From NCBI RefSeq assembly GCF_023525255.1, contig NZ_CP073355.1, forward strand, positions 1,054,001-1,118,000: 64,000 nt of DNA, in the 5' to 3' direction. This DNA comes from Thermospira aquatica (GTDB lineage Bacteria > Spirochaetota > Brevinematia > Brevinematales > Thermospiraceae). Both the position numbers and the translations under genes were made by a program. How positions within the stretch are numbered: the first letter of the stretch is position 1; every line of letters begins with the position of its first letter. Below the pieces are notes generated by a model. The model made no database searches. It was not told where the DNA came from and worked only from the letters and a program-made list of their open reading frames with translations. Shown piece after piece: positions 9,482 to 31,524 of the stretch.

Positions 9482-9638
9482 ATTTTCCTCCTTATAATTA
9501 TAATAGGGTATAGTTAATGTGACGTCTGTATATATTATAAATTTTTCTTTTAAAAAATGCAATTTTTTTTATAAAAACAAAATTGTTAATGATCATTGAA
9601 ATGACCCCCAAATAGGGATATTAATCTCTCTCTAGGAA

Positions 9639-10556: not shown

Positions 10557-10756
10557 AGCCATGAGGTTGTAAGTCTTTTATTTACAATAACATATTTATT
10601 TTATAACTGGTTTTATTTTTTTGTTTTTTATGCTGGCATTGAATGGTTTTATTCTCCTTTCTGGAATTTTTGCATTGTTTTTTTGTTGTTTAATTCTTTT
10701 GCTTTCTTTTAATTATAAAAGGGTTTTTCTTTTTTTGCAAATAAATTGGAAGATTT
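10557..10756 (-). promoter_or_regulatory. CRISPR leader
   Basis: About 200 bases of very AT-rich, T-run-rich DNA between the intact first repeat and the cas4 stop. Its position next to the non-degenerate end and its composition fit a leader that drives pre-crRNA transcription leftward and receives new spacers. I cannot pick a single promoter in it with confidence. No protein-coding frame is credible here. Confidence 0.7.
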
Positions 10757-11341
10757 TTATACACATATTTTTTGGTAGGTGCAATCAATGCATTTGTTTT
10801 GGTTTTTTTTGACAGGGGGAAAGTATTCAAATTCAATAATTTTGAGCATATTATGTATTATATGCAGGACGTGGTGGTAGTCTTCTTCAGAGAGAGAAAC
10901 TTCTACCATTTTGTTTGAGCTTCTTGTGAAAACTATGAAACCTCTTTTTATCTCTCGTTGATAGATATCCCTTACACACAGTCCATACATGGCTAATTGG
11001 GTTCGGTATGTATCGTAAAGGTACTCTTTGTATTCAGCGAATTTGTAGTCTATAATGATTGCTTGGTTGTTTTTGGTGAATAAGAGTTCATCGACGATGC
11101 CTTTGATGTGGTAGCGTGGGGAGATGAGATAGGCATTGACTATTTTTTCTTTGATGGAGAGCCTTTTTCTGAGGTAGGTTGTGTTTTCTTTTTGTTTTTT
11201 TTTATGGAGACTTCTTCCGATCAGGACTTTTTCTCGTGTTTGCTCTTGTTGGGGAATTTTGAGAACTTCCATGAAATAGGTAAACCTGGGACAGAAGAGG
11301 TATTCTATGACATCTGACGGGGTGAAGAAGATCTCTTTCAT
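10757..11341 (-). CDS. cas4: CRISPR-associated exonuclease Cas4
   Basis: A 194-residue RecB-like nuclease that trims and orients pre-spacers for Cas1-Cas2. Visible features are an early Cys (EYLFCPRF, about residue 17), the nuclease core (GIVDEL then IIDYKF, supplying Asp, Asp and Lys), a QLAMYGL helix, and a C-terminal cluster of three Cys (CIDCTYQKIC) that with the first Cys would hold a 4Fe-4S cluster. The length is normal for the family. It starts 1 bp after the cas2 stop and is the last gene of the operon, next to the leader. In many type I-B loci cas4 precedes cas1; here it follows cas2. Confidence 0.93.
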   Translation of the reverse strand: MKEIFFTPSDVIEYLFCPRFTYFMEVLKIPQQEQTREKVLIGRSLHKKKQKENTTYLRKRLSIKEKIVNAYLISPRYHIKGIVDELLFTKNNQAIIIDYKFAEYKEYLYDTYRTQLAMYGLCVRDIYQREIKRGFIVFTRSSNKMVEVSLSEEDYHHVLHIIHNMLKIIEFEYFPPVKKNQNKCIDCTYQKICV

Positions 11342-11342
11342 T

Positions 11343-11672
11343 TTATATTATCAGGGCTTTGATTTTGTCTGACACCATATCTTTGTCAAACTCTTCGCCA
11401 ATCATTCGAACGTTTTCAAAATTTTCTTGTGAGACGGGGAAAATATAGATTTTGTCAGAAAGAGCGTCTCTTTCTTCGTTTTTGAGAGCTTCTTTAATGA
11501 GACGTTCACAGAAGACAGCCATCTCGTCAATTTCGTTTTTGTTTATATTGCCTACGAATACAGATTTTTGGATCCTGTATAAGCCTATTGTTTCAAGTTT
11601 TTTTACTATTTTGTTTCGTCTTCTGTTTCCGGCTTTGGTGCTTTCGATGTCATAGACTATGTATACTATCAT
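11343..11672 (-). CDS. cas2: CRISPR-associated protein Cas2
   Basis: A 109-residue protein that pairs with Cas1 in spacer integration. It begins with the Cas2 ferredoxin-fold strand (MIVYIVYDIES) carrying the conserved Asp at residue 8, followed by a basic helix (NRRRNKIVKKLETIGLYRIQKSVF). It is slightly longer than many Cas2 proteins because of an insert around residues 65-75. It sits one base from the cas1 stop and one base before the cas4 start, consistent with a tightly coupled adaptation module cas1-cas2-cas4. Confidence 0.92.
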   Translation of the reverse strand: MIVYIVYDIESTKAGNRRRNKIVKKLETIGLYRIQKSVFVGNINKNEIDEMAVFCERLIKEALKNEERDALSDKIYIFPVSQENFENVRMIGEEFDKDMVSDKIKALII

Positions 11673-11673
11673 T

Positions 11674-12690
11674 TTATACCTCCTCTATTTCAAGTTTTTC
11701 AAATTGTTCTCTTTCGTTTTGGAGCCATTCGTTGGCGAGATGTCTCAATTCAAAAAGGGGCATATGTTTTCTTTTGATGTTTCTTCCTCGATAACGGATA
11801 GGTTCGTCTAAAAAGGCTGTGAAATGTTCGATGATGGTCTTTTTCCCATTGTCTTCAATCAACACACCATTCTGAAGTTTTTGGAAGTCTTTCTTTCCTA
11901 GTTTCCTGTTTGAAAAAAGATAGAGAGTGCTTTCTTCGGCGTAGATTCTGACCATCTCGATGGCATCAAAGACAAAGCTTTTTTTATTGTAGTTATCGAC
12001 ATGCATGATACCTATGAAAGGATCTATTCCAGCAAGTATGCAAGCTTTTTCTACGAGACTGTATAAGATACCATAATGATAGTTCAAAGCAGCGTTAAAT
12101 TCATCTTTTGCTGGATTTCGACTTCTCTCCTCGAATTGAAAGCTTTCAGGCAAAAGTTGACTTATGGTTTTGAAGTACTCTCTTCCAACTGATCCTTCAA
12201 TGCCAAGAAGAGTGTTTCGTATTTCTTCTATGGTACCGTTTACTTCGTTTAAACTGTTTTTATGTTTGATGATGGTTTCTTGGAGGTTTTGAAGAATGTT
12301 TTTGTGGTTGGGACGGGTTTTTATGAGTTTTTCTATCCATTCAAGTTGATTTTCAAATTTTTTGTTAATAAAGTATCTGGCGTATTTTGTACCAGTCTCT
12401 CCAGTACTAATTTCTAACTGCTTTTTTCTGATGAGAGTAGTGGAACCAAGTTTGCTGTGCCATACTCTACTTATAGGGTCACCAAATTTGTTGAGAAAAA
12501 CAATATCAATGTTGTTTTCATAACAGAGAGAGATGACGTCTGTTGAGATGGCGGCTCCGGAGGTTATGAAGATGCTTTCTATCTTTTTGGGGGAGAATCG
12601 CTTTTCTTCTCCTTTTTCTCCTATTTTGACAGTGATGAGACCATCTCGTACATGGAGGAAGGATCCAAAGGTAACGAGGAAGAGAAGCAT
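11674..12690 (-). CDS. cas1: CRISPR-associated integrase Cas1
   Basis: A 338-residue metal-dependent integrase for new spacers. The N-terminal beta domain (LLFLVTFGSFLHVRDG through IESIFITSGAAISTD) matches type I Cas1. The catalytic helical domain shows the conserved Glu of VGREYFKTIS, the region EFNAALNYHYGILYSLVEKA, then DPFIGIMHVDN with the catalytic His and FVFDAIEMVR, where the conserved residues fall in their usual order. Length and layout are those of an active Cas1. It follows cas3 by 28 bases with its own AAGGAGG site. Confidence 0.95.
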   Translation of the reverse strand: MLLFLVTFGSFLHVRDGLITVKIGEKGEEKRFSPKKIESIFITSGAAISTDVISLCYENNIDIVFLNKFGDPISRVWHSKLGSTTLIRKKQLEISTGETGTKYARYFINKKFENQLEWIEKLIKTRPNHKNILQNLQETIIKHKNSLNEVNGTIEEIRNTLLGIEGSVGREYFKTISQLLPESFQFEERSRNPAKDEFNAALNYHYGILYSLVEKACILAGIDPFIGIMHVDNYNKKSFVFDAIEMVRIYAEESTLYLFSNRKLGKKDFQKLQNGVLIEDNGKKTIIEHFTAFLDEPIRYRGRNIKRKHMPLFELRHLANEWLQNEREQFEKLEIEEV

Positions 12691-12718
12691 TTAAAACAAA
12701 CCTCCTTGTTAAAAACCA

Positions 12719-15055
12719 TTACAACACAACGGCTGAAGAAGTCATGCCTTCCGTAATAAAACCAGTCTCTAAATCATAAAATTCACGGAGTTTATCATTA
12801 CTTAAGTAGTAAATTCCATTAACAAGTTCTAGAGAGTTTTTTATACTTGCTGGTACACATATGACGTATTGATAAAATTGGTCTTTTATCGAGTCAAAGT
12901 GTTGTTTTTTCAAAAATCGGTTGCCTATTTCTTTTATTTTTAGAAAATCTTGCCAAACACCTTTTGCTATATCATCGAATTCTATGAAAACATCTATTTT
13001 GTTATAATCTTCTTCTATGAGCTTAAATGCAGAAATGGAGGGTACATTCTTATCCTCAGTATCATATTTAAGTTTTTCAATGGCTTCTAAAAGATTTTTT
13101 GATACATTTTGTGTTTTCTTGTTTTTGGTTTCATTGTAATAATCTTCTATCAGTTTCAAAAATTCATCTTCTTTTATTTCCTCTTTTTCTGAAAGAATTT
13201 TTTTAGTTATATCAAGCAAGACACAATCGTATATATAGGAAGCATAGGTACGATCGTTATCATCCTTTAGTTCAAAAACATAGACCACTCCTTTACTTTT
13301 AGAATTGTTATTTCTATTACATCTTCCCGCTGCCTGGTTAATAGAATCCAGTGGTGCCATATCTCTTACTACAATATCAAAATCTATGTCCACTCCTGCT
13401 TCTACGAGTTGTGTAGTGATAACAACTTGGTACATATTGGCTTTAATCTCTCGAATACGTTGCAATCTTTCTCTGGGAGTTATATGAGTAGAAAGGAAAG
13501 TATGGGATATGGATAGATTTTCGATCATCTCATAAAATCTTTTTGCCGAAGCAATAGTATTAAAAATAAATAGGTAAGATTTTCCATTATCTAATTGAAA
13601 ATAATTAAAAAGCTCTTCTAATGTTCTTGATTTATCTAAAACGGGTATTAATAAAACTCTGTTTAGACTGGAAAAATATGAATCTTTATTTACAAGGCTT
13701 GTGATTTCATTTTTTTCAAATATCAAGGGCTCTGTTGCAGTAGCAAATATGATATAGACATTTAAGCTATCAGAAAGTTTCTTCATAATAGTTTGTAGTA
13801 ATGACCAATACTTTATAGGTATAGATTGAACTTCATCGAGTATAATAATAGAGTTAGAAAGTTTATGAAATTTTCTAAGATTTTTGTTTTGATTGGAAAT
13901 CAAAGTATGAAATAGTTGCATGAAGGTTGTTACTATTATTTCAGAGTTCCATCCTTCTATAAGAATTTTTGCTTCGTCTGTCTCGAATTCGTTGTTTTCT
14001 TTTTGATAAGAAATCCCTGAGAGATGATGATGTTTTAATAAAATGTCAGAAGTAGGTTCAAGATGGTTTGATTTTATCACAGATTCAAAAACACTGAAGT
14101 TTTGCTCAATAATACTGAGAAATGGCAAGGCATAGATGATTCGAGGATGTATATTCTTTTCATTTTTCAATTTTTCTCTGAGCTTTAATGCAAAGGATAA
14201 AGAGATCAAAGTCTTTCCCAGACCAGTCGGAAGATTGAGAGAATAGATTTTTTTATCTAAAGAGATCTCCTTACTCATAACTTCTTGATAAGCTTCTTCT
14301 CTCAGTGGATTTATACTTGAAAAATCAAATTTTTTATTTTTTTTGTAATTATTTACCCAATCGGAGGTGTTGAATGTCTTTCTTTCAAAAATATCCCGAG
14401 TTTTTACTACTACTTCATTCTTGTCTGCATCAAGTAGCAAAGAATAAAGGAAATTTAAATAGAGATAATGTCTAACATCTTTATCTAGATTTCTTACTTC
14501 TTTCTTTAATTTCTTCAGTTCTTCTGGAAAGTTTTCTATCCAACCTCGAATACACTCTTTTGTGAGAAATATGGGAAGCCCTTCTTTTTTAAGTTTAGAG
14601 GCAAGTTTTTTAAACGACTTCTCATCAATACTATCAAGTTGCTGAAGGAGAAGTTTTTTCTCCTCGTCAGTAAAGAGTGAAATCTCATCTAAAACATCTA
14701 TAAGATCTCCATGGTGCCTTTTTACTGCAATATAACTAAAAAGAGGAAAAAATTTTTCAGCTCTTTTTTCTTTTACGATAAAATAAGCACAGATAGCTGA
14801 AAAAAGACTGTGGTGAGTTTCTTTTTTTTTCTTGATTTCTTCTTTTTCTTTATCATTAGCTTTTAGATAACATTGAAAATAAGATGTTGCCTTGCCTATG
14901 TCGTGAGTAAGAGCGATAATTTTTACGATGTCTCTAAGTTCTTCTTGTATCTCTGGTGGTTTTTCACAAAGGAATAACTCTGAGAACTGAGCTACACCTA
15001 TTAGATGGTCTTCAAGTAGTACGTCAGGATGAGAATAAAGATTAGAAGAACACAA
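12719..15055 (-). CDS. cas3: CRISPR-associated nuclease/helicase Cas3
   Basis: A 778-residue effector that degrades target DNA once Cascade has bound. The HD nuclease domain is N-terminal (DHLIG near residue 16 and THDIGK with His51-Asp52, then KRHHGD). The helicase half has Walker A LPTGLGKT (about residue 275), motif II DEVQ, motif III-like FATAT, GVDIDFDIVVRD and motif VI QAAGRCNRN. All key residues are present. Its start codon lies inside the last 14 bases of cas5, so it is translationally coupled. Domain order HD-then-helicase is the usual Cas3 order. Confidence 0.95.
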   Translation of the reverse strand: MCSSNLYSHPDVLLEDHLIGVAQFSELFLCEKPPEIQEELRDIVKIIALTHDIGKATSYFQCYLKANDKEKEEIKKKKETHHSLFSAICAYFIVKEKRAEKFFPLFSYIAVKRHHGDLIDVLDEISLFTDEEKKLLLQQLDSIDEKSFKKLASKLKKEGLPIFLTKECIRGWIENFPEELKKLKKEVRNLDKDVRHYLYLNFLYSLLLDADKNEVVVKTRDIFERKTFNTSDWVNNYKKNKKFDFSSINPLREEAYQEVMSKEISLDKKIYSLNLPTGLGKTLISLSFALKLREKLKNEKNIHPRIIYALPFLSIIEQNFSVFESVIKSNHLEPTSDILLKHHHLSGISYQKENNEFETDEAKILIEGWNSEIIVTTFMQLFHTLISNQNKNLRKFHKLSNSIIILDEVQSIPIKYWSLLQTIMKKLSDSLNVYIIFATATEPLIFEKNEITSLVNKDSYFSSLNRVLLIPVLDKSRTLEELFNYFQLDNGKSYLFIFNTIASAKRFYEMIENLSISHTFLSTHITPRERLQRIREIKANMYQVVITTQLVEAGVDIDFDIVVRDMAPLDSINQAAGRCNRNNNSKSKGVVYVFELKDDNDRTYASYIYDCVLLDITKKILSEKEEIKEDEFLKLIEDYYNETKNKKTQNVSKNLLEAIEKLKYDTEDKNVPSISAFKLIEEDYNKIDVFIEFDDIAKGVWQDFLKIKEIGNRFLKKQHFDSIKDQFYQYVICVPASIKNSLELVNGIYYLSNDKLREFYDLETGFITEGMTSSAVVL

Positions 15056-15770
15056 TGTTTACCCCTTGTTCCAGTTGATAATAGCTTTTTACGGTTGCTT
15101 TGAGAGTTTTTCCATCAGACTCAAAAATTACATCTTCATATTTTTCTACTATTCGTTCTTGATTCATTTTAATAGGAATTTTCTCCTTAAAATATTTCTT
15201 GTTCTGTTCGATCTCAATCTTGTCTTCAATCAATTTATCCACTGTAACAGGAGTACATAGCTCTACCGCTTTATTACTCGTTTTCTCATAAGAATCGTAA
15301 AGCCCAACATATTTAAAGTTAGCAAGAAGCTCACTCAAGCCGAGAGAGACTGTGTAAACAGATTTGTGTTCTTGGATACCTTCAGAGAGTTTATTAAAGA
15401 CCTGTTCATCCTCATGGCTTATATAAATTCTAAAACAAGGGTCTTTAAGAAATTCTGTCCTTATCTGTGTGCGAGGTGCAAGATTTTTATCACTCATGGG
15501 AAGTCTTAAATTTGTTCCCTTTGTCTCCAAGAGATTAAGCCCCATTCTTACCTTCTTTACAGGGCTGAGTATTTGCAAAGCAATTTTACATTTTTCAGTT
15601 CCAAATACTTTTAGATATTCGTTCGAGTTTTTATCTGTACCATATATAGCTCCTAAGATACCAGCAATTGTTGGTGGTGGAGGAAATGAAAAAGTAAGAG
15701 GTGATGTAGTAGTATAAAATTTACGAAAATGCCCGTAGTCTCCCCATATATCAAAGACTAAGACTTTCAT
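15042..15770 (-). CDS. cas5: Cascade subunit Cas5 (type I-B)
   Basis: A 242-residue RAMP-fold protein that caps the 5' handle of the crRNA. The first strand and its loop (MKVLVFDIWGDYGHFRKFY) and the signature SFPPPPTIAGILGAIYG are characteristic of Cas5 of the I-B/Hmari-Tneap group. The central region NLLETKGTNLRLP and the C-terminal strands fit the family. Its stop overlaps the cas3 start, and it follows cas7 by 13 bases. Confidence 0.93.
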   Translation of the reverse strand: MKVLVFDIWGDYGHFRKFYTTTSPLTFSFPPPPTIAGILGAIYGTDKNSNEYLKVFGTEKCKIALQILSPVKKVRMGLNLLETKGTNLRLPMSDKNLAPRTQIRTEFLKDPCFRIYISHEDEQVFNKLSEGIQEHKSVYTVSLGLSELLANFKYVGLYDSYEKTSNKAVELCTPVTVDKLIEDKIEIEQNKKYFKEKIPIKMNQERIVEKYEDVIFESDGKTLKATVKSYYQLEQGVNIVFF

Positions 15771-15783
15771 AGTATCCCTTCAC

Positions 15784-16698
15784 TCAAAAAGTAAGCTCTT
15801 CAATGGTAAAAGCACTTAACGCTGATTTTAAATCAACATCTGTGCCATTTGCTATAAAAGTAACCCTATCGTCAACCTTTAGCCGTATCTTTTCAATTTT
15901 GTCCTTATAGGAGTTCAGTATTTCCACAAGTTTTGTGATGTCAATTTTGACTTCTGAAATATCACGGATAGATTCAGGATTTTTGTCGGTCTTCAATGAT
16001 ATACGTTTATCTAACTCTCCTATGTAGAAATTTTCTCCCTTATAAATTACTTGCATAAGTAACCTTGGCATTTGTCCGAATTTCGAGGCCGAAGTAAGAT
16101 TCTTAGTGCCATTCCAGATACCCTCAAGCATTAAAGAAACATCTTCTTCTTTTAGTTCTATTCCTTGATTCACTGCTACCTTTTCATTAACAATGCCATA
16201 AAAAGCTATAAGAGAATACGGTAAGATATACCTTTCCATAAATGTGCCTTGCTTCCGTCCCGCTGCTGATGGCATAACTGTAGTCCCTTTTATGTAAGTA
16301 AGGTCAACTTTATGGAGTGATCTGCCGTATTTGAATTGAACTGGTCCTGTTAATGCCATTGTTTGATTCTCCACTGCTGTAGTGGCGCCGAATAATCTTA
16401 TATCAATACAATTTCTTATCACCTTTTCTGGATTACTCTCAAAATCCTTTAATCTGTCTTCTTTTGTTTTTAACATACCTTTTTCATCTCGTATCTCACG
16501 GATAAAAATATCTTTCCCTTTATACTTATGGAGATAATCTCTGATAGTCCTCTTTAACCTTACGTCTGTAACAATATTCACACCTGTTTCCTCATCAATT
16601 CTTGGTTTGTTTTCATCTACAGGATCTCCATTTGGATTAGCATCTTTCACATCATAAAGAAACAAAATCTCTGAACGGTTTTTGACCAATTCTGACAT
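15784..16698 (-). CDS. cas7: Cascade backbone Cas7 (Csh2 type)
   Basis: A 304-residue Csh2-type protein that forms the helical backbone around the crRNA spacer. The opening SEILFLYDVKDANPNGDPVDEN is the Csh2 hallmark, followed by TDVRLKRTIRDYL and the later block QTMALTGPVQFKYGRSLHKV. I place the start at 16698, where AAGGAGG precedes ATG; the frame runs to 16764 but that extension has no ribosome site and lies inside cas8b. The gene begins 4 bases after the cas8b stop. Confidence 0.95.
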   Translation of the reverse strand: MSELVKNRSEILFLYDVKDANPNGDPVDENKPRIDEETGVNIVTDVRLKRTIRDYLHKYKGKDIFIREIRDEKGMLKTKEDRLKDFESNPEKVIRNCIDIRLFGATTAVENQTMALTGPVQFKYGRSLHKVDLTYIKGTTVMPSAAGRKQGTFMERYILPYSLIAFYGIVNEKVAVNQGIELKEEDVSLMLEGIWNGTKNLTSASKFGQMPRLLMQVIYKGENFYIGELDKRISLKTDKNPESIRDISEVKIDITKLVEILNSYKDKIEKIRLKVDDRVTFIANGTDVDLKSALSAFTIEELTF

Positions 16699-16702
16699 AA
16701 CT

Positions 16703-18604
16703 TTATTCCTCCTTTTCTTTTTTTCCGTTGTTTGGATAAACAATATCAGACACATCTTCAGCAATGTTCATACCACAAGCAAAGTAAAAATTAATTTCAT
16801 CTACTGACATTTTCCAATTGTCTCCAGCTTCAAGGAGATACGTTGATGCTTCGGAGGCGATCAGTCTTTTACCCTGGTCAAAGGAATCGTATTCCTCAAG
16901 TTTATTCTGCACTTCTGGTAAAAGCGCCTTAATATCCTTTTCATCCATCCTCAAACCTTTAAGCTTTTTCATGAAGGGTCTGGCATTTCTCTCAGCCCAT
17001 TGTTTGTTGAGAAGCCATTGAGTTAATACTCCTAATAAAAAAATACCTTTTTTAGCAGGGGTTTTCAAAGATTTTCCAAAACGATTAAAAATACTGTTAA
17101 GTCTACTTTCCTCCATATTCTCTACCTCCTCGAAGGTTATTATACCAAGATTTTCAAAGAATTTTATGTTCATTAAAGCATCTTTTACTCTGAAAGTAAA
17201 ATAGCCTTCATTGATAACTTCTCTTCTAATAGTGGCCATATAAAATTTTACAAGGAGATTAAAATCAATCCTCTTTCCTTTAAAGACACTATCTATTATA
17301 TCAAGGAAATATTTGTCAAGGTCATTTTCACTCTTACCTTCACTTGATTTGGAGAAAAATGTTCGTATCGTGCCAAAAGTAAACTTTTCATCAGAATTCT
17401 TATTAAAGAGTTCATCAACTTCATTTTTGGCATCAAAAATTTTTCTTATCCTTGAGGGAAATACGTCTTCAATTAATAATAAAATCCTTTCTGCACTTTG
17501 TTCCTCTTTTAGGAAAAGAAAGTTCAAAGTAAGAACATCTTTTTTTTCTGAAAGATATTCAAGTATTTCGTTTTCATCATTCGTAATTCTCTTTTTTATT
17601 TTTTCCTCTGGACTGATGGTTTTAGGGGTTTCTGACATGATATTAAGAATCTCTTCCCAGATCTCTTTACTGCCTATGAGCAATCTCGGTATCAAATAGT
17701 AGTTTAGTCCATAGAATTTGAAGTTGAGTTTCTTCTTAAGGAATTCTTTTCCATTTTCCAGTAAAGCTCTACACTCACCACATACAGGAAAATTTTTCCA
17801 CGCAAGAGCTTCTTTGAATCCACCAGTAATAAATCCTGGTTTATCAATGGTATAGAATTTAAAGACATTTGTTTTGCCCGATACCTCCTTGTCAGATAAT
17901 CCACAAAGAGAGCATACACCTGAACCTGCTGACCTTTTTAATTTCTCTTCGGACAAATTTATAAGGCAATTTTTTAAAATATCATATTCACCAAGGTATT
18001 TTTTGTTAATCTTGAGAGAAAGGAATCTTCCTTCACCTTTTTTCTTGGGTAAATCTTTTATTTTTTTATCTAACACAGAAGTAATATCTTCTCTTCTTTG
18101 GCTGAGAATTCCAACGGCATGGTTTATTAAAGACATTTGCAGATACAGAATTAAAGACATTTGCAGATACAGAGCATAAAAGTTTTTTTGGCTGAGAATT
18201 CCAACGGCATGGTTTATTAAAGGGTCTTTTGTTTGATTGCATTGTTTTAACCAACTCTCTATTTTTTGATTGCATTGTTTTAACCAACTCTCTATTTTTT
18301 GATTGCATTGTTTTAACCAACTCTCTATTTTTTTGTAGGTTTTTTCTACCTCTGTAATGGGACAGATTGGAGCAGGTGCATTGCCTTTTGAAGCTCCTGC
18401 TTTGTATAAGTAGTAGTCTCTTTTATCTGAGTCAAAGTCTTCTATTTCTATTCCTGTATATTCTAATATTTCTATTCCTGTATATTCTAATTTGACAGTA
18501 TCAAGATTGACAAACAGGATTTTGCCTTCTATGTTTTCTTCAATGGTGTTTGCAGCCTGGGTATCTGCTACCAGTTTCCCAATATCTTTTATTGTAGAAA
18601 GCAT
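16703..18604 (-). CDS. cas8b: Cascade large subunit Cas8b (Csh1/TM1802 type) with internal duplications
   Basis: A 633-residue large subunit that recognises the PAM and positions Cas3. A four-cysteine zinc-finger-like pair (CSLCGLSDKEV near residue 232 and CGECRALLENG near 275) marks the Csh1/TM1802 group. The C-terminal half is the usual helical region. The N-terminal third is unusual. LEYTGIEI occurs twice in tandem, KIESWLKQCNQ three times, LYLQMSLI twice in tandem, and INHAVGILSQ twice flanking those copies. All DNA repeats are multiples of three in net length and keep the frame open. It starts 23 bases after cas6. Whether the protein still folds is uncertain; the frame is intact to its stop. 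Confidence 0.88.
   Translation of the reverse strand: MLSTIKDIGKLVADTQAANTIEENIEGKILFVNLDTVKLEYTGIEILEYTGIEIEDFDSDKRDYYLYKAGASKGNAPAPICPITEVEKTYKKIESWLKQCNQKIESWLKQCNQKIESWLKQCNQTKDPLINHAVGILSQKNFYALYLQMSLILYLQMSLINHAVGILSQRREDITSVLDKKIKDLPKKKGEGRFLSLKINKKYLGEYDILKNCLINLSEEKLKRSAGSGVCSLCGLSDKEVSGKTNVFKFYTIDKPGFITGGFKEALAWKNFPVCGECRALLENGKEFLKKKLNFKFYGLNYYLIPRLLIGSKEIWEEILNIMSETPKTISPEEKIKKRITNDENEILEYLSEKKDVLTLNFLFLKEEQSAERILLLIEDVFPSRIRKIFDAKNEVDELFNKNSDEKFTFGTIRTFFSKSSEGKSENDLDKYFLDIIDSVFKGKRIDFNLLVKFYMATIRREVINEGYFTFRVKDALMNIKFFENLGIITFEEVENMEESRLNSIFNRFGKSLKTPAKKGIFLLGVLTQWLLNKQWAERNARPFMKKLKGLRMDEKDIKALLPEVQNKLEEYDSFDQGKRLIASEASTYLLEAGDNWKMSVDEINFYFACGMNIAEDVSDIVYPNNGKKEKEE
18097..18331. 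repeat. Cluster of perfect tandem and nested duplications in cas8b
   Basis: A 33-base unit is repeated three times without mismatch (18233-18265, 18266-18298, 18299-18331). A 24-base unit is repeated twice with one mismatch (18127-18150, 18151-18174). A 36-base unit occurs at 18097-18132 and again at 18187-18222. The near-identity of the copies indicates recent slippage-type expansion, or an assembly error. Confidence 0.95.
18444..18491. repeat. 24-base tandem duplication in cas8b
   Basis: Two identical 24-base copies, 18444-18467 and 18468-18491, encode LEYTGIEI twice in the N-terminal region of Cas8b. They keep the reading frame. Confidence 0.95.
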
Positions 18605-18627
18605 GGATTGCTCCTCCTCGTATATCT

Positions 18628-19308
18628 TTAGCTTACAAATTTCTCATTGCTTCTTTTAGCTTCCTCTCCCATGGTATCCTTCACAATGATCCCAAATCCA
18701 ATACTCTTACGTTTTCCCGTTCCAATAAAAGAAGGTATAGTTACATTACATGTAAAGTTTCCCATGAAACCAATAATTTTTTGATTGTCTAACGTAATTT
18801 CTTTTTTGTAAAATGTTCCTTTGACTATGATTTTCTTGTTCACCCATATCCCAACACCTTTGAGATCAGAGAGGATGTTAGCTATCAAAACCTTTTGAAG
18901 ATCGAGCTCCCCTCTCCTGTAAAGTTCGTAATTCTTTTGATTAAGAGCAAGCCAGGGACTGAGAAAACAATAACTCAAGAAATCATCTACAACGTTGAAA
19001 TCGACGTCTAACATTTCGAGTTTACTTGTGACAACGGGATAAATGTTTTCTTCGATGATAAGTTCTTTGTGTTTGACAAATTCCTCTGAAATTAAGTCTG
19101 CTCCTTCACAGATACCAGTTATGGTAAATTGACCTTGAACAACCTTGTATTGGATTTTAGGATATTGATAAATGTCTTTTCCATCGTCTGTATGATTATG
19201 GAAAAGAGGATTGTTTCTGTATCTATTGGCAAAAAAACCTCTTAGTTTTTCTGCCCATCTTGGAGGAACAGCTATGGGAAGTGTGAAGGTTAATATCGCG
19301 TATTTCAT
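18628..19308 (-). CDS. cas6: crRNA-processing endoribonuclease Cas6
   Basis: A 226-residue RAMP protein that cuts pre-crRNA within the repeat. The C-terminal glycine-rich loop GTGKRKSIGFGI is the Cas6 signature. An early segment (NPLFHNHTDDGKDIYQYPKIQYKVV) carries His38 and His40, which resemble the Cas6b N-terminal pattern and include candidate catalytic histidines. It is the first gene of the cas operon, after a TTGACT/TATAAT promoter, and cas8b follows 23 bases later. The subtype call (Cas6b) is by pattern only. Confidence 0.9.
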   Translation of the reverse strand: MKYAILTFTLPIAVPPRWAEKLRGFFANRYRNNPLFHNHTDDGKDIYQYPKIQYKVVQGQFTITGICEGADLISEEFVKHKELIIEENIYPVVTSKLEMLDVDFNVVDDFLSYCFLSPWLALNQKNYELYRRGELDLQKVLIANILSDLKGVGIWVNKKIIVKGTFYKKEITLDNQKIIGFMGNFTCNVTIPSFIGTGKRKSIGFGIIVKDTMGEEAKRSNEKFVS

Positions 19309-19475: not shown

Positions 19476-20738
19476 GTGTCAAGAAAATTGTGTCTAGTCA
19501 TAGGATAACCTCGCTGTGAATATTTTCTTTGGTGTATGAGTGTTGCTCACGATAGAGTTGAAAGTAATACTCCCAATTTTTTAACTTTCTTTTTAAGAAC
19601 TTCTCATTTTGGTATCTTAATAACAGGTAAAGATATTTCTCAACTGAAGCCTCGCTTTGACACATTTCCATTGTTTTTAATCTCCTTTTAAGTTCTTTAA
19701 AGAGTCTTTCCAGGGCATTGTTTGTATACACCATGCTTCGTATTCCTTCAGGTAATTCCATGTAAGTGAATATATTCTCTCTTATTGTCAAGAGGTTATT
19801 CATTAAGTTGGGATAGATATTTTTCCATTTTTGTGTAAATTTCATAAACAATTGTTCTGCCTCCTGTTTGTCTTTGGCATGAAATACCTCTTTTATTTCA
19901 GTGGCAATGATATTTCTGTGTTGAACTCTCACTTTAGCCAGTATGTTTCTCATGACATGGACTACACAGGGCTGATACTTTGCGTGGGGATATATCTCTG
20001 TTATGACGTTTTCATACCACTTAAGCCATCAGAGACAATAAAATGAATCTGTTTGACACCTCTTTCTCTTATATCTGTAAAATTTCCCGCCAGTTATAAG
20101 CACTTTCCATGCCTCCTGGCAGGTAGTATCCTAAAATCTCCCGTCTTCCCTCAGGTGTAATGCCTATAGCTACATATATTGATTCATTTTCTACCCTATC
20201 TCTCTTGATAGGAAACACCATAGCATCCAGAAATACCACGGCATATTCTTCCATGAGAGGGCGACTACGCCACTTCTGAATCTCTTCTATGCCTACCTGG
20301 CTTATCCTTGAGATGTTAGCATAAGAAATCTTTATTTCATAAAGCTCTTTTAAAACTTCTGCTATCTTCCTTGTTGACATTCCTGATATCAACATAGCCC
20401 TGATTAATGCATCTAAGTCTTCTGTGATACGTTTGCGATAGGGAAGAAGGGCACATTTAAATCCATTATCCCTTGTTCTTGGAACACGTATGGCTGTAAG
20501 CTCGCCAAAAGCTGTCTTTAAATCCCTTTCGTAAAAGCCATTGCCTTTTGTGGGAGGATTGTTTTCCAGGTAAATCTCTCTTTCCTCTTTTAACATACTC
20601 TCTAATACTTCCTTGACAATTGGTTTGAATAGCTCTAAAATATTCTTCGTCTCAATCATATCTGGCCTCCTGTGATAGTTTTATTTATATTATCACAGGA
20701 GGTTATCTTTTTCCTACCAGACACAATTAAGTATACAC
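19476..20738 (-). mobile_element. Decayed IS256-family insertion sequence
   Basis: An element of about 1.26 kb with imperfect inverted repeats. The left end reads GTGTCAAGAAAATTGTGTCT and the right end, on the minus strand, GTGTATACTTAATTGTGTCT, followed on both sides by a GATAACCTC block. It carries one IS256-type transposase on the minus strand, broken by two frameshifts. No clear target duplication is visible. It inserted just upstream of the cas promoter. Boundaries are inferred from the inverted repeats. Confidence 0.75.
19498..20659 (-). pseudogene. IS256-family transposase, two frameshifts
   Basis: The N-terminal fragment (20659 to about 20072) carries FYERDLKTAFGELTAIRVPRT and the first catalytic Asp in VVFLDAMVF. 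A middle piece in another frame contains the second Asp (RERGVKQIHFIVSDGLSGM). The C-terminal fragment (from 19953) contains the catalytic Glu in NNALERLFKELKRR. One missing base after NWREILQ (near 20077) and one after GLSGM (near 20020) would restore a continuous transposase of about 390 residues with a complete DDE triad. Both losses fit a missing G. Otherwise the protein is well preserved, so decay is recent. Confidence 0.85.
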
Positions 20739-21902: not shown

Positions 21903-22000
21903 ACTTACCTCCCTGAGGGTATAAAATTTACTTTTATATCATAGGGAGTCTCCTCATACAAGTCAAGGAAATTTTGTATTTTATGGCTTTTTCATCCAAA

Positions 22001-22070
22001 AGTATGAGAAAAAAAGAAGACTCATCTTTTCGTATGAGAAAATATTTTTGAAAAAATCATACTTTTTTCG
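22001..22070. promoter_or_regulatory. Candidate regulator site between oxidoreductase and xyl operon
   Basis: GTATGAGAAAA occurs at about 22002 and 22033, and its inverse TCATACTTTTTTCG at about 22058. The last two form an imperfect inverted repeat ending just upstream of the xylF -35 box. Its place in the divergent control region suggests an operator; the regulator is unknown. Confidence 0.45.
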
Positions 22071-22072
22071 TA

Positions 22073-22100
22073 TTGACTCTTTTTCCAGAGGGTGTACAAT
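22073..22100 (+). promoter_or_regulatory. Promoter of the xylFGH operon
   Basis: TTGACT (22073-22078), a 16-base spacer and TACAAT (22095-22100), about 160 bases upstream of the xylF start, leaving a long leader of A/G-rich sequence before the AAGGAGG at the gene. Confidence 0.65.
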
Positions 22101-22263
22101 ATGGGCGAAGAAACGCAAAAAAGCGTTTTATGTGAAAATCTGAGAGAAGGAGGTGAAACGGCAAAAGTAGGAAACAAAAAAAGGAAAAAATGGTTTTTGG
22201 GGTTTCCCTGAAAAAGGGGACAAGGTGTTGTAAAGTGTTTTTCCGGAAAAAAGGAGGAAAAAT

Positions 22264-23271
22264 ATGAAGAGAGTTTTTGGTTTGGTTTTGGTGCTTTCTA
22301 TGGTATTGGTAAGTTTTACGTTTGCTGCTTCCAAGGTTCGCATTGGTCTTTCATTGCCTACACAGAGAGAAGAGAGATGGGTAAGAGACAGGATCAAAAT
22401 GCGAGAAGAAGCTAAGAGATTGGGTGTGGATCTGCGTGTTCAGATCTCTGATAATGATGCTGCAAAGCAGGTGGCGCAGTGTGAGAATCTGATTGCGCAG
22501 GGCATTCAGGTTTTGATTCTTGCTCCTCATGATGCAAGCAGTGCTTCCGTTATAGTAGAAAAAGCTCATAAAGCTGGTATTCCTGTGATTTCTTATGATC
22601 GTCTTGTGTTGGATTGTGAGGTTGATGTGTATCTTTCTTTTGACAATGTGAAGGTTGGAGAGTTGCAGGGTGAGTATATTACCAGACTTGTTCCTAAGGG
22701 AAATTATGTGGTTCTGGCCGGTTCTCCTACCGATAACAATGCAAAACTCTTCCGAGAGGGTGCTATGAAGTACATTCAGCCCCTTGTGGACAAAGGACAG
22801 ATCAAGATCGTTATGGATCAGTGGGTAAAGGATTGGCAGCCTGCAGAAGCTCAGAAGCTTATGGAACAGGCTTTGACAGCTAATAAGAACAAGATTGATG
22901 CCGTACTTGCTCCAAATGATGGTACAGCTGGCGGATGTATTCAGGCTCTGGCAGCTCAGGGTTTGGCTGGAAAGGTACCTATTACGGGACAGGATGCAGA
23001 GCTTGCAGCAGCTATCCGTATTGTTGAGGGCACACAAAGCATGACAATTTTCAAGGATACTCGTCTTCTTGGTGCAAAAGCTATTGAGCTTGCTATTAAG
23101 ATGGCTAAAAAAGAAAGTATTGCTGATCAGATTAACGGTAAGGTCAACAACAACAAGATTGATGTTCCTTCAGTATTGTTAACTCCTTATGTTGTTGATA
23201 AGTCTAATATAGACAAGATGCTTATCGAGAGTGGTTATCTGAAACGAAAACAGGTTTACAAGAAAAAATAA
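22264..23271 (+). CDS. xylF: Xylose-type ABC transporter substrate-binding protein
   Basis: A 335-residue periplasmic binding protein with a signal peptide (MKRVFGLVLVLSMVLVSFTFA, cleavage after AA-S). The mature part begins KVRIGLSLPTQREERWVRDR, the opening typical of XylF, followed by ISDNDAAKQVAQCENLIAQGIQVLILAPHD and VISYDRLV with the sugar-contacting residues of the family. GSPTDNNAKLFREGAM and LAPNDGTAGGCIQAL fit the same fold. It is the first gene of the operon with strong AAGGAGG. It delivers D-xylose or a similar pentose to XylGH. Specificity is inferred from similarity. Confidence 0.92.
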   Translation: MKRVFGLVLVLSMVLVSFTFAASKVRIGLSLPTQREERWVRDRIKMREEAKRLGVDLRVQISDNDAAKQVAQCENLIAQGIQVLILAPHDASSASVIVEKAHKAGIPVISYDRLVLDCEVDVYLSFDNVKVGELQGEYITRLVPKGNYVVLAGSPTDNNAKLFREGAMKYIQPLVDKGQIKIVMDQWVKDWQPAEAQKLMEQALTANKNKIDAVLAPNDGTAGGCIQALAAQGLAGKVPITGQDAELAAAIRIVEGTQSMTIFKDTRLLGAKAIELAIKMAKKESIADQINGKVNNNKIDVPSVLLTPYVVDKSNIDKMLIESGYLKRKQVYKKK

Positions 23272-23334: not shown

Positions 23335-23356
23335 AGAGGGAGAAGGAGTGAAAGTT

Positions 23357-24889
23357 ATGGAATATGCATTGGAGATGCAGAATATCGTCAAGGAATTTCC
23401 AGGGGTGAGAGCGCTTGATGGTGTTACCTTTAGGGTAAAAAGAGGGGAGATTCATGCGCTGGTTGGGGAAAACGGTGCCGGGAAATCCACCCTTATGAAG
23501 GTGTTGAGCGGGGTGTATCCGTATGGTACCTATGAAGGCAAGATTTATGTAGATAGCAAAGAACAAAAATTCCATCATATTGCAGATAGTGAAAAGGCTG
23601 GAATTGCTATTATTTATCAGGAATTGACGCTTATCAAACAGATGACGATTGCGGAAAATATTTATCTGGGAAACGAAAATGTCCAGGGGGGAGTGATTAA
23701 CTGGAACGAAACCTATCGTAAGACAGAGGCGCTTCTCAAACAGGTAGGGCTTCCTCTGAGTCCTGCGACGATGGTTGGTGATCTGGGAGTTGGTTCGCAA
23801 CAGCTTGTAGAGATTGCCAAAGCACTCTCCAAGAATGCCTCTATTCTTATTCTGGATGAGCCAACAGCTGCTTTAACAGAGACAGAATCTGAAAAACTCC
23901 TCGATATTCTCCGTCAGCTTAAGGCAAAAGGGGTCACATCCATTTTTATTTCCCATCGTTTGCCAGAGGTATTAGAAATTGCTGATACCATTACCGTTCT
24001 TCGGGATGGTAAAACGATTATTACAGATGCGAAGGAAAAATTTGATGAAAACCGGCTCATCTGTCACATGGTGGGACGAGAGATTACCAATGTTTATCCA
24101 CGCGTTCCTCATAAGGCTGGAGAGGTAGTGATGGAAGTAAAGAACTGGACAGTATATGATCCCTCTAGCGATAAAAAAGTGTGTGATAATGTGAGTTTTC
24201 AGGTGCGACGTGGTGAGATCCTTGGATTGGGTGGACTTATGGGGGCAGGGAGAACCGAGCTGGTCATGAGCCTCTTTGGCGTCTGGGGAAAAGTTGTTTC
24301 GGGAGAAATTATTCTTGGTGGAGAAAAAATCACCATTCGTTCGGCGGAAGATGCCATCAAACAGGGGATCAGTTTGCTCTCGGAGGACCGAAAACGGTAT
24401 GGATTGGTATTAGGGATGGATGTTATGAGGAATATGACACTCTCCAGCCTCAAGAGTTTCTCTCGTTATGGGGTGCTCAACAAAAACGAAGAGATCAAAC
24501 AAAGCCAGCATTATGTAAGCAAACTCCGTGTGAAGACACCCAGTCTGGAACAGGAAGTGAGAAACTTAAGCGGAGGAAACCAGCAAAAGGTGATTATTGG
24601 TAAATGGCTTCTTACAAAACCCAAGGTGCTTATTCTTGATGAACCAACGAGGGGGATTGATGTGGGAGCGAAGTTTGAGATCTATAATCTCATGAATACT
24701 CTCATAGAAGAAGGTGTTTGTGTGATCATGATTAGTTCTGAACTTCCTGAGCTTCTTGGTATGAGTGATAGGATTCTGGTCATCCATGAAGGCAGAATAA
24801 CCGGAGAACTGGATGCCAAGGAGGCAACACAGGAGTCGGTGATGTATTATGCTACCGGTGGCACGGGTAATGCCCCTGTGGCGTGTTGA
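23357..24889 (+). CDS. xylG: Xylose-type ABC transporter ATPase, tandem domains
   Basis: A 510-residue ATPase with two ABC domains. Domain 1 has Walker A GENGAGKS (about residue 36), signature region VGSQQLVEIAKAL and Walker B ILILDEPTAAL. Domain 2 has a degenerate Walker A (GLMGAGRTE), signature LSGGNQQKV and Walker B VLILDEPTRGID. This is the layout of RbsA/XylG/MglA importers. I take ATG 23357 as start because AAGGAG lies eight bases before it; the GTG at 23348 is too close. It follows xylF by 85 bases and precedes xylH by 31. Confidence 0.93.
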   Translation: MEYALEMQNIVKEFPGVRALDGVTFRVKRGEIHALVGENGAGKSTLMKVLSGVYPYGTYEGKIYVDSKEQKFHHIADSEKAGIAIIYQELTLIKQMTIAENIYLGNENVQGGVINWNETYRKTEALLKQVGLPLSPATMVGDLGVGSQQLVEIAKALSKNASILILDEPTAALTETESEKLLDILRQLKAKGVTSIFISHRLPEVLEIADTITVLRDGKTIITDAKEKFDENRLICHMVGREITNVYPRVPHKAGEVVMEVKNWTVYDPSSDKKVCDNVSFQVRRGEILGLGGLMGAGRTELVMSLFGVWGKVVSGEIILGGEKITIRSAEDAIKQGISLLSEDRKRYGLVLGMDVMRNMTLSSLKSFSRYGVLNKNEEIKQSQHYVSKLRVKTPSLEQEVRNLSGGNQQKVIIGKWLLTKPKVLILDEPTRGIDVGAKFEIYNLMNTLIEEGVCVIMISSELPELLGMSDRILVIHEGRITGELDAKEATQESVMYYATGGTGNAPVAC

Positions 24890-24920
24890 TAAAAGCAGAT
24901 ATTGGAAGGAGGATACATTT

Positions 24921-26120
24921 ATGGAGAACAAATCGTTGTGGGAACTTATTGCACACTCTATTCGAAAGAATATTCGTCAGTATACTATGATCTTTGCACT
25001 TTTGGGGATATGGCTCATCTTTTCATTTTTGACAGAGTTTATTTTTCTGACTCCTCGAAACCTGTCTAATCTCTTTGTTCAAACAGCAACAACGGCTATT
25101 CTAGCCATGGGTATGGTTTTGATTATTGTGACAGGAAATATTGATCTCTCGGTTGGATCAGTGATGGGTTTTTGTGGGGCTGTTGCCGCTATTCTTATGA
25201 TTCGTCTGGAATGGGGTCCTGTTCCTACCGTACTTGTGACCCTTCTCGTTGGATTGGTTATTGGTGCCTGGCATGGTTTCTGGATTGCTTATCAGAAGGT
25301 CCCGGCCTTTATCGTGACACTTGCGAGCATGCTTGCTTTTCGTGGTGCTATTATAGGTATTACGGGAGGGCAGACGCAGGGGCTGGAGATGGCAGCAGAC
25401 GCTGTTGCAGCCGACAGTTTTAAAGCTATTGGCCAGTCTTATCTCCCCAAATTGAATGAGGCGCTCCCTTTTCATGATACGAGTTTGTACCTGATGATTG
25501 CCAGTGTGATTGTGTACTGGTTTTTTGAGATGAAGGTGCGCAGGGATCGGCAAAAATACGGATTTCATGTTCTTCCTCTCAAGTACCAGTTTTTGAAGAT
25601 GCTTCTTATGTCTGTAGTTATAGCTGCTTTCTATGGGATTATGGTGATTTATCTGGGTGTTCCCTATTCGATTATTCTTGTGATGGTGTTAGCCATTGTC
25701 CTGACTTTTGTAGCCAATAACACTGTTTTTGGAAGGCATCTCTACGCCATAGGTGGTAATGCAGAAGCCTCTCGTTTATCGGGTATCAATATTGCCCGTA
25801 ACGTGATGATTCTTTACATGCTTATGGGGCTCCTCACCGCCGTAGCGGGGATTGTGTACACGGCGCGCCTCAATGCAGCAACGACTTCCGCAGGACAAAA
25901 TGCCGAACTCGATGCGATTGCTTCAGCTGTGATTGGAGGAACCAGTCTTATGGGTGGAGAAGGAACCATTGTCGGAAGTTTGATAGGAGCTCTGGTGATG
26001 GCAAGTCTCGACAATGGGATGAGTCTTATGAACCTGGATATTACCTTCCAGTACATTGTGAAAGGGCTTATCCTTCTGCTTGCGGTGTGGGTTGATGTCA
26101 GAACGAGGAAGAAGTCATAG
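24921..26120 (+). CDS. xylH: Xylose-type ABC transporter permease
   Basis: A 399-residue inner-membrane permease with about ten or eleven hydrophobic segments. [25 protein letters not shown] and [29 protein letters not shown] are hallmarks of the ribose/xylose permease family. The unusually long loop with charged residues at 215-235 fits XylH rather than RbsC. The start at 24921 follows GGAAGGAGG; the frame extends upstream to 24849 within xylG without support. A strong terminator follows 13 bases after the stop. Confidence 0.92.
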
Positions 26121-26170: not shown

Positions 26171-26395
26171 GTAAGGAGTGTTATACGTTGGATACTATGA
26201 TGGAGATAAATAAACGGTGAAATATAAGGTGATGGGATTTTAAATTGAAGGATCTTCAGAAAAAGAAAAAAGGTGTGAGCGTGACCAACCTCTATAAAGC
26301 CTTTTAAGAATAAGCCGGGTGTGAGAGGCACAATCGGTGAAAAGGGTTTTTATGGGTTATGTACTCAAAAAAAAAAACAAAAAAAGGAGGGCGTT

Positions 26396-27658
26396 ATGGA
26401 AAATTTTTCTCGATCTCTTGAACAAACTATTGCCTTTATTTTAGGGGGAGGAAGGGGACAGAGGCTCTACCCTCTTACGAAATTTCGCGCGAAGCCGGCG
26501 GTCCCTTTTGCAGGCAATTATCGTCTTATTGATATTCCTGTAAGCAATTGTATTCATTCTGGGGTGCATAAGATCTACATCATGACGCAATTTCAATCAG
26601 CCTCTCTGAATCGGCATATCATGCAGACCTATAAACTTGATATCTTTCGTGAGGGTTTTGTTGATATTCTGGCCTCTGAGCTGAGTTTTAATCCCGCGGA
26701 GAGTGGGTTTTCAGAAGGCACAGCCGATGCGGTTCGTAAGGGGTTAAAGCATATTGAACATCAGGGCATGCAAAAATCTTATGTCCTCATCCTCGCTGGA
26801 GATCAACTGTATAGGATGGATTATCGAAAGATTCTCCGTCGCCATCTTGATGAAAATGCTCAAGTTACTCTTGCTGTACTTCCGATTAAAAGACAGGATG
26901 CAGAGCGTTTTGGGTTAATGCAGATCAAAGATGGGAGGGTGATAAATTTTAAAGAGAAACCAAAAGCTGAAGATATTCCCCCTGAATGGTATCGGGGTGA
27001 GCGTTTGTATGGCTCAATGGGGATCTATCTTTTTGATCTGGATTTTTTAAAGGAAGTATTGTACAATCATCCGGAGTGGCAGGATTTTGGCAAGCAGGTT
27101 TTGCCTGGTGTTATAGCAGGGGGAGGCTCTGTGGTTGCTTATGAGTTTACAGGATACTGGGAGGATATAGGAACGGTTGCCTCTTTCCACGAGGCACATC
27201 TGGGGTTGGTGAAAAAGGACCCTGTTTTTGATCTTTATCAGGCTGATTGGCCATTTTTCTTTAAGCCACGGTTTCTACCGCCAGCCCGTCTCCTTGAAGC
27301 CAGGGTTTCTGATTCGCTGGTGAGTGATGGTGTGAAGATAGAGTCTTCGGAAATCCGGAGCTCTGTTATTGGTATTCGGACACTGGTAGAGAAAGGAGCC
27401 CAGATTGAGGAGAGCGTTATTATGGGCGCGGACTATTTTGTTACGGATAGTGAGGGCGGGTCTGGATTTCAGTGTGTTATTGGAGCCGGGAGTGTGATCC
27501 AGAAAGCGATTATTGACAAAAATTGTCGTATTGGCCGTGGTGTTCGCCTAACGAATGAGCACAGAGTCCAGCATGAGGAAGGAGATTTTTATAGTATTGT
27601 TGATGGCATAATAGTGATTCCCAAAAATACGGTTGTTCCCGATGGGACAATAATATAA
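26396..27658 (+). CDS. glgC: Glucose-1-phosphate adenylyltransferase
   Basis: A 420-residue enzyme making ADP-glucose from glucose-1-phosphate and ATP, the first committed step of glycogen synthesis. The nucleotide-binding loop is FILGGGRGQRLYPLTKFRAKPAVPF. The family blocks PVSNCIHSGV, LAGDQLYRMDY, FKEKPKAE, GSMGIYLF and YWEDIGTVASFHEA are present, and the C-terminal part is a left-handed beta-helix (VIGAGSVIQKAIIDKNCRIGRG). The start at 26396 follows AAGGAGG; an in-frame ATG-less extension to 26321 is unlikely. The downstream phosphatase gene follows by 15 bases. Confidence 0.95.
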   Translation: MENFSRSLEQTIAFILGGGRGQRLYPLTKFRAKPAVPFAGNYRLIDIPVSNCIHSGVHKIYIMTQFQSASLNRHIMQTYKLDIFREGFVDILASELSFNPAESGFSEGTADAVRKGLKHIEHQGMQKSYVLILAGDQLYRMDYRKILRRHLDENAQVTLAVLPIKRQDAERFGLMQIKDGRVINFKEKPKAEDIPPEWYRGERLYGSMGIYLFDLDFLKEVLYNHPEWQDFGKQVLPGVIAGGGSVVAYEFTGYWEDIGTVASFHEAHLGLVKKDPVFDLYQADWPFFFKPRFLPPARLLEARVSDSLVSDGVKIESSEIRSSVIGIRTLVEKGAQIEESVIMGADYFVTDSEGGSGFQCVIGAGSVIQKAIIDKNCRIGRGVRLTNEHRVQHEEGDFYSIVDGIIVIPKNTVVPDGTII

Positions 27659-27673
27659 AGATAGGGGGATATA

Positions 27674-30561
<2,888 letters not shown>

Positions 30562-31524
30562 TTATTTAAGCGAGCAGAGACGAGCAAGAGCAAGGCGATT
30601 TTTTACCCCTGTTTTTTGGTAGATGTTGTAGATGTGAGTTTTGACGGTGGAGAGCGAGATGTAGAGGGTTTCGCTAATCTGGCGGGCATTCATACCTTCG
30701 AAAAGAAGCCTCATGATCTCTGTCTCACGAGGGGTAAGGTTGTATTTCTTTATCACGGAAGGTGGGATCTCCGGGTTTTCTTCTGGTTCACCGAGAAGTT
30801 TGTAGACAAGGTTTTCGGGGATGGTTTGCCGGGCATCTGATTCGTAGGCTATTTTCCCTTCTTTGAGGACCCCAACGCGATTGGCTATTGACATAGTGTT
30901 GTCTATCTTGTGGTTTAGATAGAGGATAGCAACGCCTTTTTCTTTGAGACGTTCGAGAATAGAGGCAATTTTTCTCTGGCTTTCAACATAGATATCCAGG
31001 TGAGTAAAGGCTTCGTCGATAATAAAGACTTTTGTAGGGGAGAGGAATCCCTTGGCTAATGAGACAAGGTAAAGTTTATCTTTGGGTATGTTTTTGAGAA
31101 GAATAGAAGGAGAGATGTCCCATTGAATTTCGTTAAGTATTCTGATGGTTTCTTTGAATATCCTATGCCATCGTAAGACACCAATGCTGTGTATTTCATT
31201 TCCAAGGAAGAGGTTTTCAGCTAGAGTCATACCAGGAACAAAAGCCGAATTCTGCGAAAGCACTCTTATACCAAGATCCTCTCTTTGCTTGCATGAGAGA
31301 GAAGAGATTGGGGTATTTTCTAAAAATATCTCCCCTTGATAATGGCTTCTGGGAAAGTTCCCGCGCAAAATACAGGCGAGAACACTTTTTCCACTGTTTC
31401 TGTCCCCTATAAGATAATACATTTCCCCTGATTCCAGGGATAACGAGAGATCTTCAAGCACAAGAGCATGTTCTATGGTAACGGAGAGATGTTCGATACG
31501 GAATATTTTTTTTGGTTCTGGCAT
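30562..31524 (-). CDS. Sugar-ABC-like ATPase domain fused to LuxR-type HTH
   Basis: A 320-residue fusion. Residues 1-240 are a single ABC ATPase resembling the first domain of RbsA/XylG: Walker A GDRNSGKS (about 38), Q-loop region RVLSQNSAFVPGMTLAENLFLGNE, Walker B VFIIDEAFTHLD and H-loop YLNHK. The ABC signature is degraded (KLYLVSLAKG, no LSGGQ), so it may bind ATP without transporting. Residues 255-320 are a LuxR/GerE helix-turn-helix (NLTPRETEIMRLLFEG, QISETLYISLSTVKTHIYNIYQKTG). It has no membrane or periplasmic partner gene. It is convergent with the lyxose isomerase, with no gap. Likely a nucleotide- or sugar-responsive transcription factor. Function is inferred. Confidence 0.85.
   Translation of the reverse strand: MPEPKKIFRIEHLSVTIEHALVLEDLSLSLESGEMYYLIGDRNSGKSVLACILRGNFPRSHYQGEIFLENTPISSLSCKQREDLGIRVLSQNSAFVPGMTLAENLFLGNEIHSIGVLRWHRIFKETIRILNEIQWDISPSILLKNIPKDKLYLVSLAKGFLSPTKVFIIDEAFTHLDIYVESQRKIASILERLKEKGVAILYLNHKIDNTMSIANRVGVLKEGKIAYESDARQTIPENLVYKLLGEPEENPEIPPSVIKKYNLTPRETEIMRLLFEGMNARQISETLYISLSTVKTHIYNIYQKTGVKNRLALARLCSLK

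Follow-up and report, generated by a model that had tools for sequence, protein, structure and literature searches.

Gene content of the window

The window analysed here is a 64,000-nucleotide stretch of the Thermospira aquatica genome (contig NZ_CP073355.1, positions 1,054,001 to 1,118,000). On its minus strand, at 30562..31524, lies a gene whose 320 aa product combines an ABC nucleotide-binding domain (NBD, residues ~6-245), a short linker and a LuxR/GerE helix-turn-helix (HTH, residues ~258-320). This fusion gene is convergent with, and abuts, a plus-strand gene encoding a sugar isomerase of the D-lyxose/D-mannose family (30013..30561), an adjacency that is kept in two congeners. An importer operon is found on the plus strand and is composed of a first gene, the presumed target of the fusion, encoding a xylF-like sugar-binding protein (22264..23271), of a xylG-like gene for the real transporter ATPase with two complete NBDs (23348..24889) and of a xylH/gguB-like permease gene (24849..26120). 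In the window's genus, the fusion gene occurs ca. 4.4 kb from the end of this operon. The glgC gene is located at 26321-27658, so that both neighbours named in a first-pass annotation of this DNA, XylFGH and glgC, were indeed found beside the fusion.

No xylose isomerase was found in the window genome; "xyl" names are therefore used as family labels, and xylose was dropped as the settled substrate of the importer. Because of this result and because the permease at 24849-26120 scores best with GguB, possible substrates of the importer include glucose, galactose and other monosaccharides, a broad monosaccharide importer being as likely as a xylose importer. The glycogen genes glgC and glgX found nearby are compatible with a monosaccharide importer and prove nothing.

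Elsewhere in the window, a Type I-B CRISPR-Cas locus (9634-19308) comprises cas4, cas1, cas3, cas5, cas7, cas8b and cas6b, with an array at ~9634-10566 of 13 repeats spaced by 72-75 bp and with tandem repeats of 24 and 33 bp within the cas8b ORF (18126-18491). A fragment of an IS256-type transposase (20069-20659; 196 aa of ~380) adjoins this locus.

An ABC ATPase domain fused to a LuxR-type DNA-binding domain

The ORF proposed to encode the fusion was exact and both domains scored well above their Pfam cut-offs, with ABC_tran matching residues 23-173 (49.4 bits, cut-off 25) and GerE/LuxR residues 262-316 (60.9 bits, cut-off 23.5). Apart from weak HTH/sigma overlaps these were the only Pfam matches, and neither a NOD/NB-ARC module, a TPR-like sensor nor an N-terminal receiver domain of the NarL/FixJ type was detected in the window protein. 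In the AlphaFold model (mean pLDDT 86), an ABC fold and, C-terminal to it, a LuxR-like helical domain were predicted with confidence, and the best structural matches of this predicted fold in the PDB were ABC ATPases. GerE exceeded its Pfam cut-off in 7/7 fusion members scanned and, since all seven homologues carry both domains, a sequencing artefact at the junction can be dismissed.

The nearest NCBIfam models were XylG, GguA and AraG, with a match confined to their first half, which agrees with the earlier description of the N-terminal part as one ATPase domain of the RbsA/XylG type. That the protein is a known active transporter subunit is not borne out, as it has a single NBD and reaches 138.8 bits against an equivalog cut-off of 699. 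Alignment with NBD1 of the neighbouring XylG confirmed that Walker A (GDRNSGKS), Walker B (IIDEAF, with its catalytic glutamate) and an NHK H-loop are retained and that the ABC signature is gone, with NIPKDKLYL occurring at the position of DLGVGSQQL.

Distribution and genomic context of the fusion

The same domain order was searched for in 60 relatives, then in 393 genomes of the phylum and finally, by means of an HTH pattern, in 84,980 GTDB species. It occurs in eight genes of seven genomes, all of them Spirochaetota: the window genome, Brevinematales SKW221 (75% identity), Brevinematales Ch60, Brevinematales SKW211 (two genes), a MAG labelled Brachyspira murdochii, Spirochaetes GWB1_27_13 and Spirochaetes UWPOB_SPIRO2, which has the most diverged member. 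Outside this phylum, no ABC-LuxR fusion was found in the GTDB scan, which relied on a single HTH pattern that fusions with a different HTH in other phyla may escape. The partial matches listed for that scan (Paraeggerthella, Lachnospiraceae, KSB1 and others) mainly concerned the HTH end of the query, and sixteen of them, once translated, proved to be LuxR proteins of other architectures, in which the HTH is combined with membrane, sensor-like or repeat domains and not with an ABC domain. The plasmid matches listed were weak (<=30% identity), those annotated being ordinary sugar ABC ATPases. No report of this domain order was found in the literature searched (mainly open-licence papers), and the fusion is a conserved and apparently undescribed domain combination.

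The first-pass annotation had stated that no permease or binding protein partners the fusion, a view contradicted by its context, since each of the eight genes has a XylFGH-like operon linked to it. Four (both SKW211 genes, that of the B. murdochii-labelled MAG and that of GWB1_27_13) are located directly upstream of this operon on the same strand, the operon encoding a binding protein, a two-domain ATPase and a permease of the XylF/XylG/XylH kind. The other four are within ~5 kb, including that of UWPOB_SPIRO2 in which the operon lies ~4.6 kb downstream on the same strand. A two-domain XylG is already present at every fusion locus.

The orthologue of Ch60 (L022, 4057-5008) is split by a frameshift near 4540 that represents either an assembly error or a recent loss. 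Within the genus, both halves of the fusion are under purifying selection (dN of 0.22 for the NBD and of 0.06 for the HTH, with dS saturated), the HTH being the most constrained part of the gene, and the altered signature NIPKDKLYLV is identical between species. For these two reasons the fusion is not a pseudogene.

A candidate operator in the xylF promoter

Side-by-side comparison of promoters revealed a palindrome, TCAYCC-N4-GGRTGA, that is repeated upstream of xylF at seven fusion loci; the 4-base spacer fits, a version with a 5-base spacer having given scattered genomic matches. In the window, putative operator 1 (TCATCCAAAAGTATGA, 21992..22007) matches TCAYMCNNNNGKRTGA perfectly, as no other intergenic site of the 2.5 Mb genome does, and putative operator 2 (TCATCTTTTCGTATGA, 22022..22037), 30 bp from operator 1, has one mismatch. 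The promoter-proximal putative operator 3 (TCATACTTTTTTCGTA, 22057..22072, plus strand) has a good left half-site and a degenerate right half, as is the rule in the window's genus, where two good copies are found further upstream (at 21992 and 22022 in the window). It ends at the -35 hexamer of a sigma-70-like promoter (22073..22100, plus strand) made of TTGACT (22073-22078), a 16 bp spacer and TACAAT (22095-22100) and conserved in two congeners. This register is the same in all seven loci, the proximal 16-mer ending immediately 5' of TTGACA, TTGACT or TTGATT in 7/7 fusion-linked promoters.

Allowing one mismatch at most, 13 sites matching TCAYMCNNNNGKRTGA were counted in the seven promoters, and Markov resampling of each promoter gave any site in <=0.9% of resamples; the motif was derived from the very promoters in which it was counted, and the independent evidence consists of control loci and of a whole-genome scan. 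At the same stringency, 81.5 kb from 20 XylG-linked loci of relatives devoid of the fusion contained two matches, both away from the xylF promoter (~1.4 and ~1.6 kb upstream of the gene), and none was found at the xylF promoter in the 19 fusion-less loci having a xylF homologue and at least 1.5 kb of upstream sequence. Of five perfect sites in the window genome, four are inside open reading frames while the fifth is that of xylF. Because of these two comparisons, the palindrome is more than a product of pattern finding. It accompanies the fusion, including in SKW211 where two separate fusion-operon pairs exist in one genome; the eighth fusion gene, that of UWPOB_SPIRO2, had no recognisable operator. 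Taken together, these in silico data make it very probable that the fusion regulates xylFGH.

The operator might alternatively be owned by another, unlinked regulator, the fusion being an accessory transporter subunit or a decaying gene as the frameshift of the Ch60 copy could suggest. This is very unlikely given that the palindrome is found at 7 fusion loci against 0/19 control xylF promoters, that selection is strongest on the HTH and that a two-domain XylG already occurs at each locus.

If the fusion is indeed the regulator, the position of the operator next to the -35 suggests activation. LuxR-type activators usually bind upstream of the -35 to +1 region, and the sites are found upstream of this region and not across it, which makes an activator somewhat more probable than a repressor. 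A repressor relieved by transport and acting on the same xylF palindromes, which differs from our preferred explanation only in sign, is the less probable option yet a serious one: the near-consensus TTGACA/TTGACT hexamers with good -10 boxes look strong unaided, and occlusion of the polymerase by tandem sites is conceivable.

As regards autoregulation, no palindrome was found upstream of the fusion gene itself in a window-wide scan, and alignment of that region with congeners revealed that only the promoter is kept. Finally, another perfect palindrome, AAACGCAAAAAAGCGTTT, is located just downstream of the xylF -10 box (22111-22128). It is conserved in both congeners, was not seen in the distant fusion loci, has its sole perfect copy of the window genome here, and is either a leader hairpin or a second operator.

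Descent and erosion of the ATPase domain

When 7 fusion NBDs were placed in one tree together with 31 NBD1 and 31 NBD2 of XylG-like proteins, the fusion domains grouped with XylG NBD1 and not with NBD2 (SH-aLRT 100). When the fusions were constrained together, the tree was 15.5 log units above the result of the free search (AU p 0.78) and, for this reason, a single origin is compatible with this result, long branches barring a firmer claim.

The best-kept stretch of the fusion NBD occurs after the Q-loop. Five positions that are invariant in NBD1 (E103, N104, L107, G108 and E110, XylG numbering) are kept in 94% of cells, versus 46% for the other NBD1-invariant positions and 49% for ATP-site positions when compared to the NBD1 consensus, and random column sets matched this retention at a frequency of 7e-5. 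In ABC importers, as known from MalK and its relatives, this part of the helical subdomain is situated at the interface with the coupling helix of the permease. The segment could also be kept for folding. None of the seven fusions retains the E92-L93 pair that follows the Q-loop glutamine and is invariant in NBD1, which counts against docking on the permease: the interface with it, or its coupling, has changed in part.

Motifs for ATP are less uniform. Walker A is lost in two members (the second SKW211 copy and UWPOB_SPIRO2) and the H-loop histidine in two others (the B. murdochii-labelled MAG and GWB1_27_13), which is why nucleotide sensing, put forward in the first-pass annotation, does not hold as a general trait of the family. 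The ABC signature is gone or altered in most members. In the two that are devoid of Walker A, the post-Q-loop segment is no less well preserved than elsewhere in the family.

These observations bear on two explanations in which the importer plays no part in sensing. According to the first, the protein would be an ATP-gated dimeric regulator, an ATP sandwich dimer formed in the cytoplasm joining two LuxR domains and reading ATP/ADP or the energy state. The window protein and its congener have an intact Walker A, Walker B (catalytic glutamate included) and H-loop, and LuxR-type HTHs bind palindromes as dimers, the candidate operator being of this kind. The loss of Walker A or of the H-loop histidine in four members, the absence or alteration in most of the signature that completes the sandwich and the conservation of ATP-site positions, no better than that of the rest of the domain, nevertheless make it unlikely, and it leaves the constant association with a XylFGH-type importer unexplained.

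The second explanation is that of a cytoplasmic sensor of a ligand, sugar or sugar phosphate, that has lost contact with both transporter and nucleotide and still acts on xylFGH. Metabolite sensing is common among regulators of sugar operons, a lyxose/mannose isomerase adjoins the fusion in the window's genus, and the helical segment may have been kept for folding. We consider it improbable, however, as the segment is retained equally well where Walker A is missing and as, to our knowledge, no sugar pocket is known in ABC NBDs. Sensing of the state of the importer fits the fusion better than direct sensing of a sugar.

Proposed mode of action

The data support the first-pass proposal that the ATPase domain of a transporter now belongs to a transcription factor: the combination is conserved across several Spirochaetota lineages, with a conserved candidate operator before the importer operon. 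We propose that the first ATPase domain of a XylG/GguA-type importer was duplicated, that the copy was fused to a LuxR-type DNA-binding domain and that the product binds the repeated 16-bp palindromes of the xylF promoter, the nearest of which ends at the -35 hexamer, and would therefore control the operon of its parent transporter. Its ATPase-like domain, having kept the surface facing the permease, would dock on XylH/XylG in competition with the true XylG or beside it; docking or release would follow the transport state and free or dimerise the DNA-binding domain. The cell may thus monitor its sugar import by means of a decoy copy of a pump component.

Docking as the input is inferred from the retained segment and is plausible, at slightly less than an even chance. 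The reading as a whole, in which a one-component regulator controls xylFGH, docks on the importer through its pseudo-ATPase domain and would in this way unite MalK and MalT in one chain, is evenly balanced in our judgement. More tentatively, such proteins might represent a class of transcription factors that sense transport, a duplicated pseudo-ATPase docking on the parent permease and reporting transport to the operon promoter without a sugar-binding sensor.

Comparison with known systems

Few cases are known in which transcription is coupled to the activity of a transporter, one of them being that of MalK and MalT. In E. coli, MalK retains the LuxR-type activator MalT at the membrane as long as no transport takes place (PMC10427625). 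If docking holds, the fusion resembles this pair (PMC10427625) in that a LuxR-type output is governed via the ABC ATPase of the importer that it regulates. Unlike the fusion, which joins an ABC NBD to an HTH, the E. coli pair consists of two distinct polypeptides, and MalT, a STAND ATPase, has a sensor domain of its own; the fusion is not a member of the MalT family. Such coupling is difficult to take apart experimentally, since sensing and switching are done by different proteins, each with several roles. In the fusion, descent has joined a transporter subunit to a DNA-binding domain and a candidate operator is available, so that a single protein and a single promoter would suffice to test how regulation is coupled to transport.

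With the first NBD of XylG, GguA and RbsA, the fusion shares fold, descent, the post-Q-loop segment and its best NCBIfam matches. It differs from these proteins by having one NBD instead of two, a lost or altered signature, eroding ATP motifs and an added DNA-binding domain, while XylG itself is intact at the same locus. The fusion thus points to an ABC ATPase domain serving as a sensor after the loss of ATP-binding motifs in some members.

Like one-component regulators of the LuxR/GerE type, it has a C-terminal GerE HTH and palindromic candidate operators adjoining the -35; unlike those that carry an autoinducer, PAS/GAF, 7-TM, receiver or STAND module, it has an ABC NBD as its N-terminus. 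Finally, regulators composed of a membrane protein and a LuxR domain were detected at three loci of Brevinematales and other Spirochaetes MAGs (L068, L069 and L070). They display an HTH similar to that of the fusion (IYQKTGVKNRIELF) and are possible relatives of the donor of its DNA-binding half.
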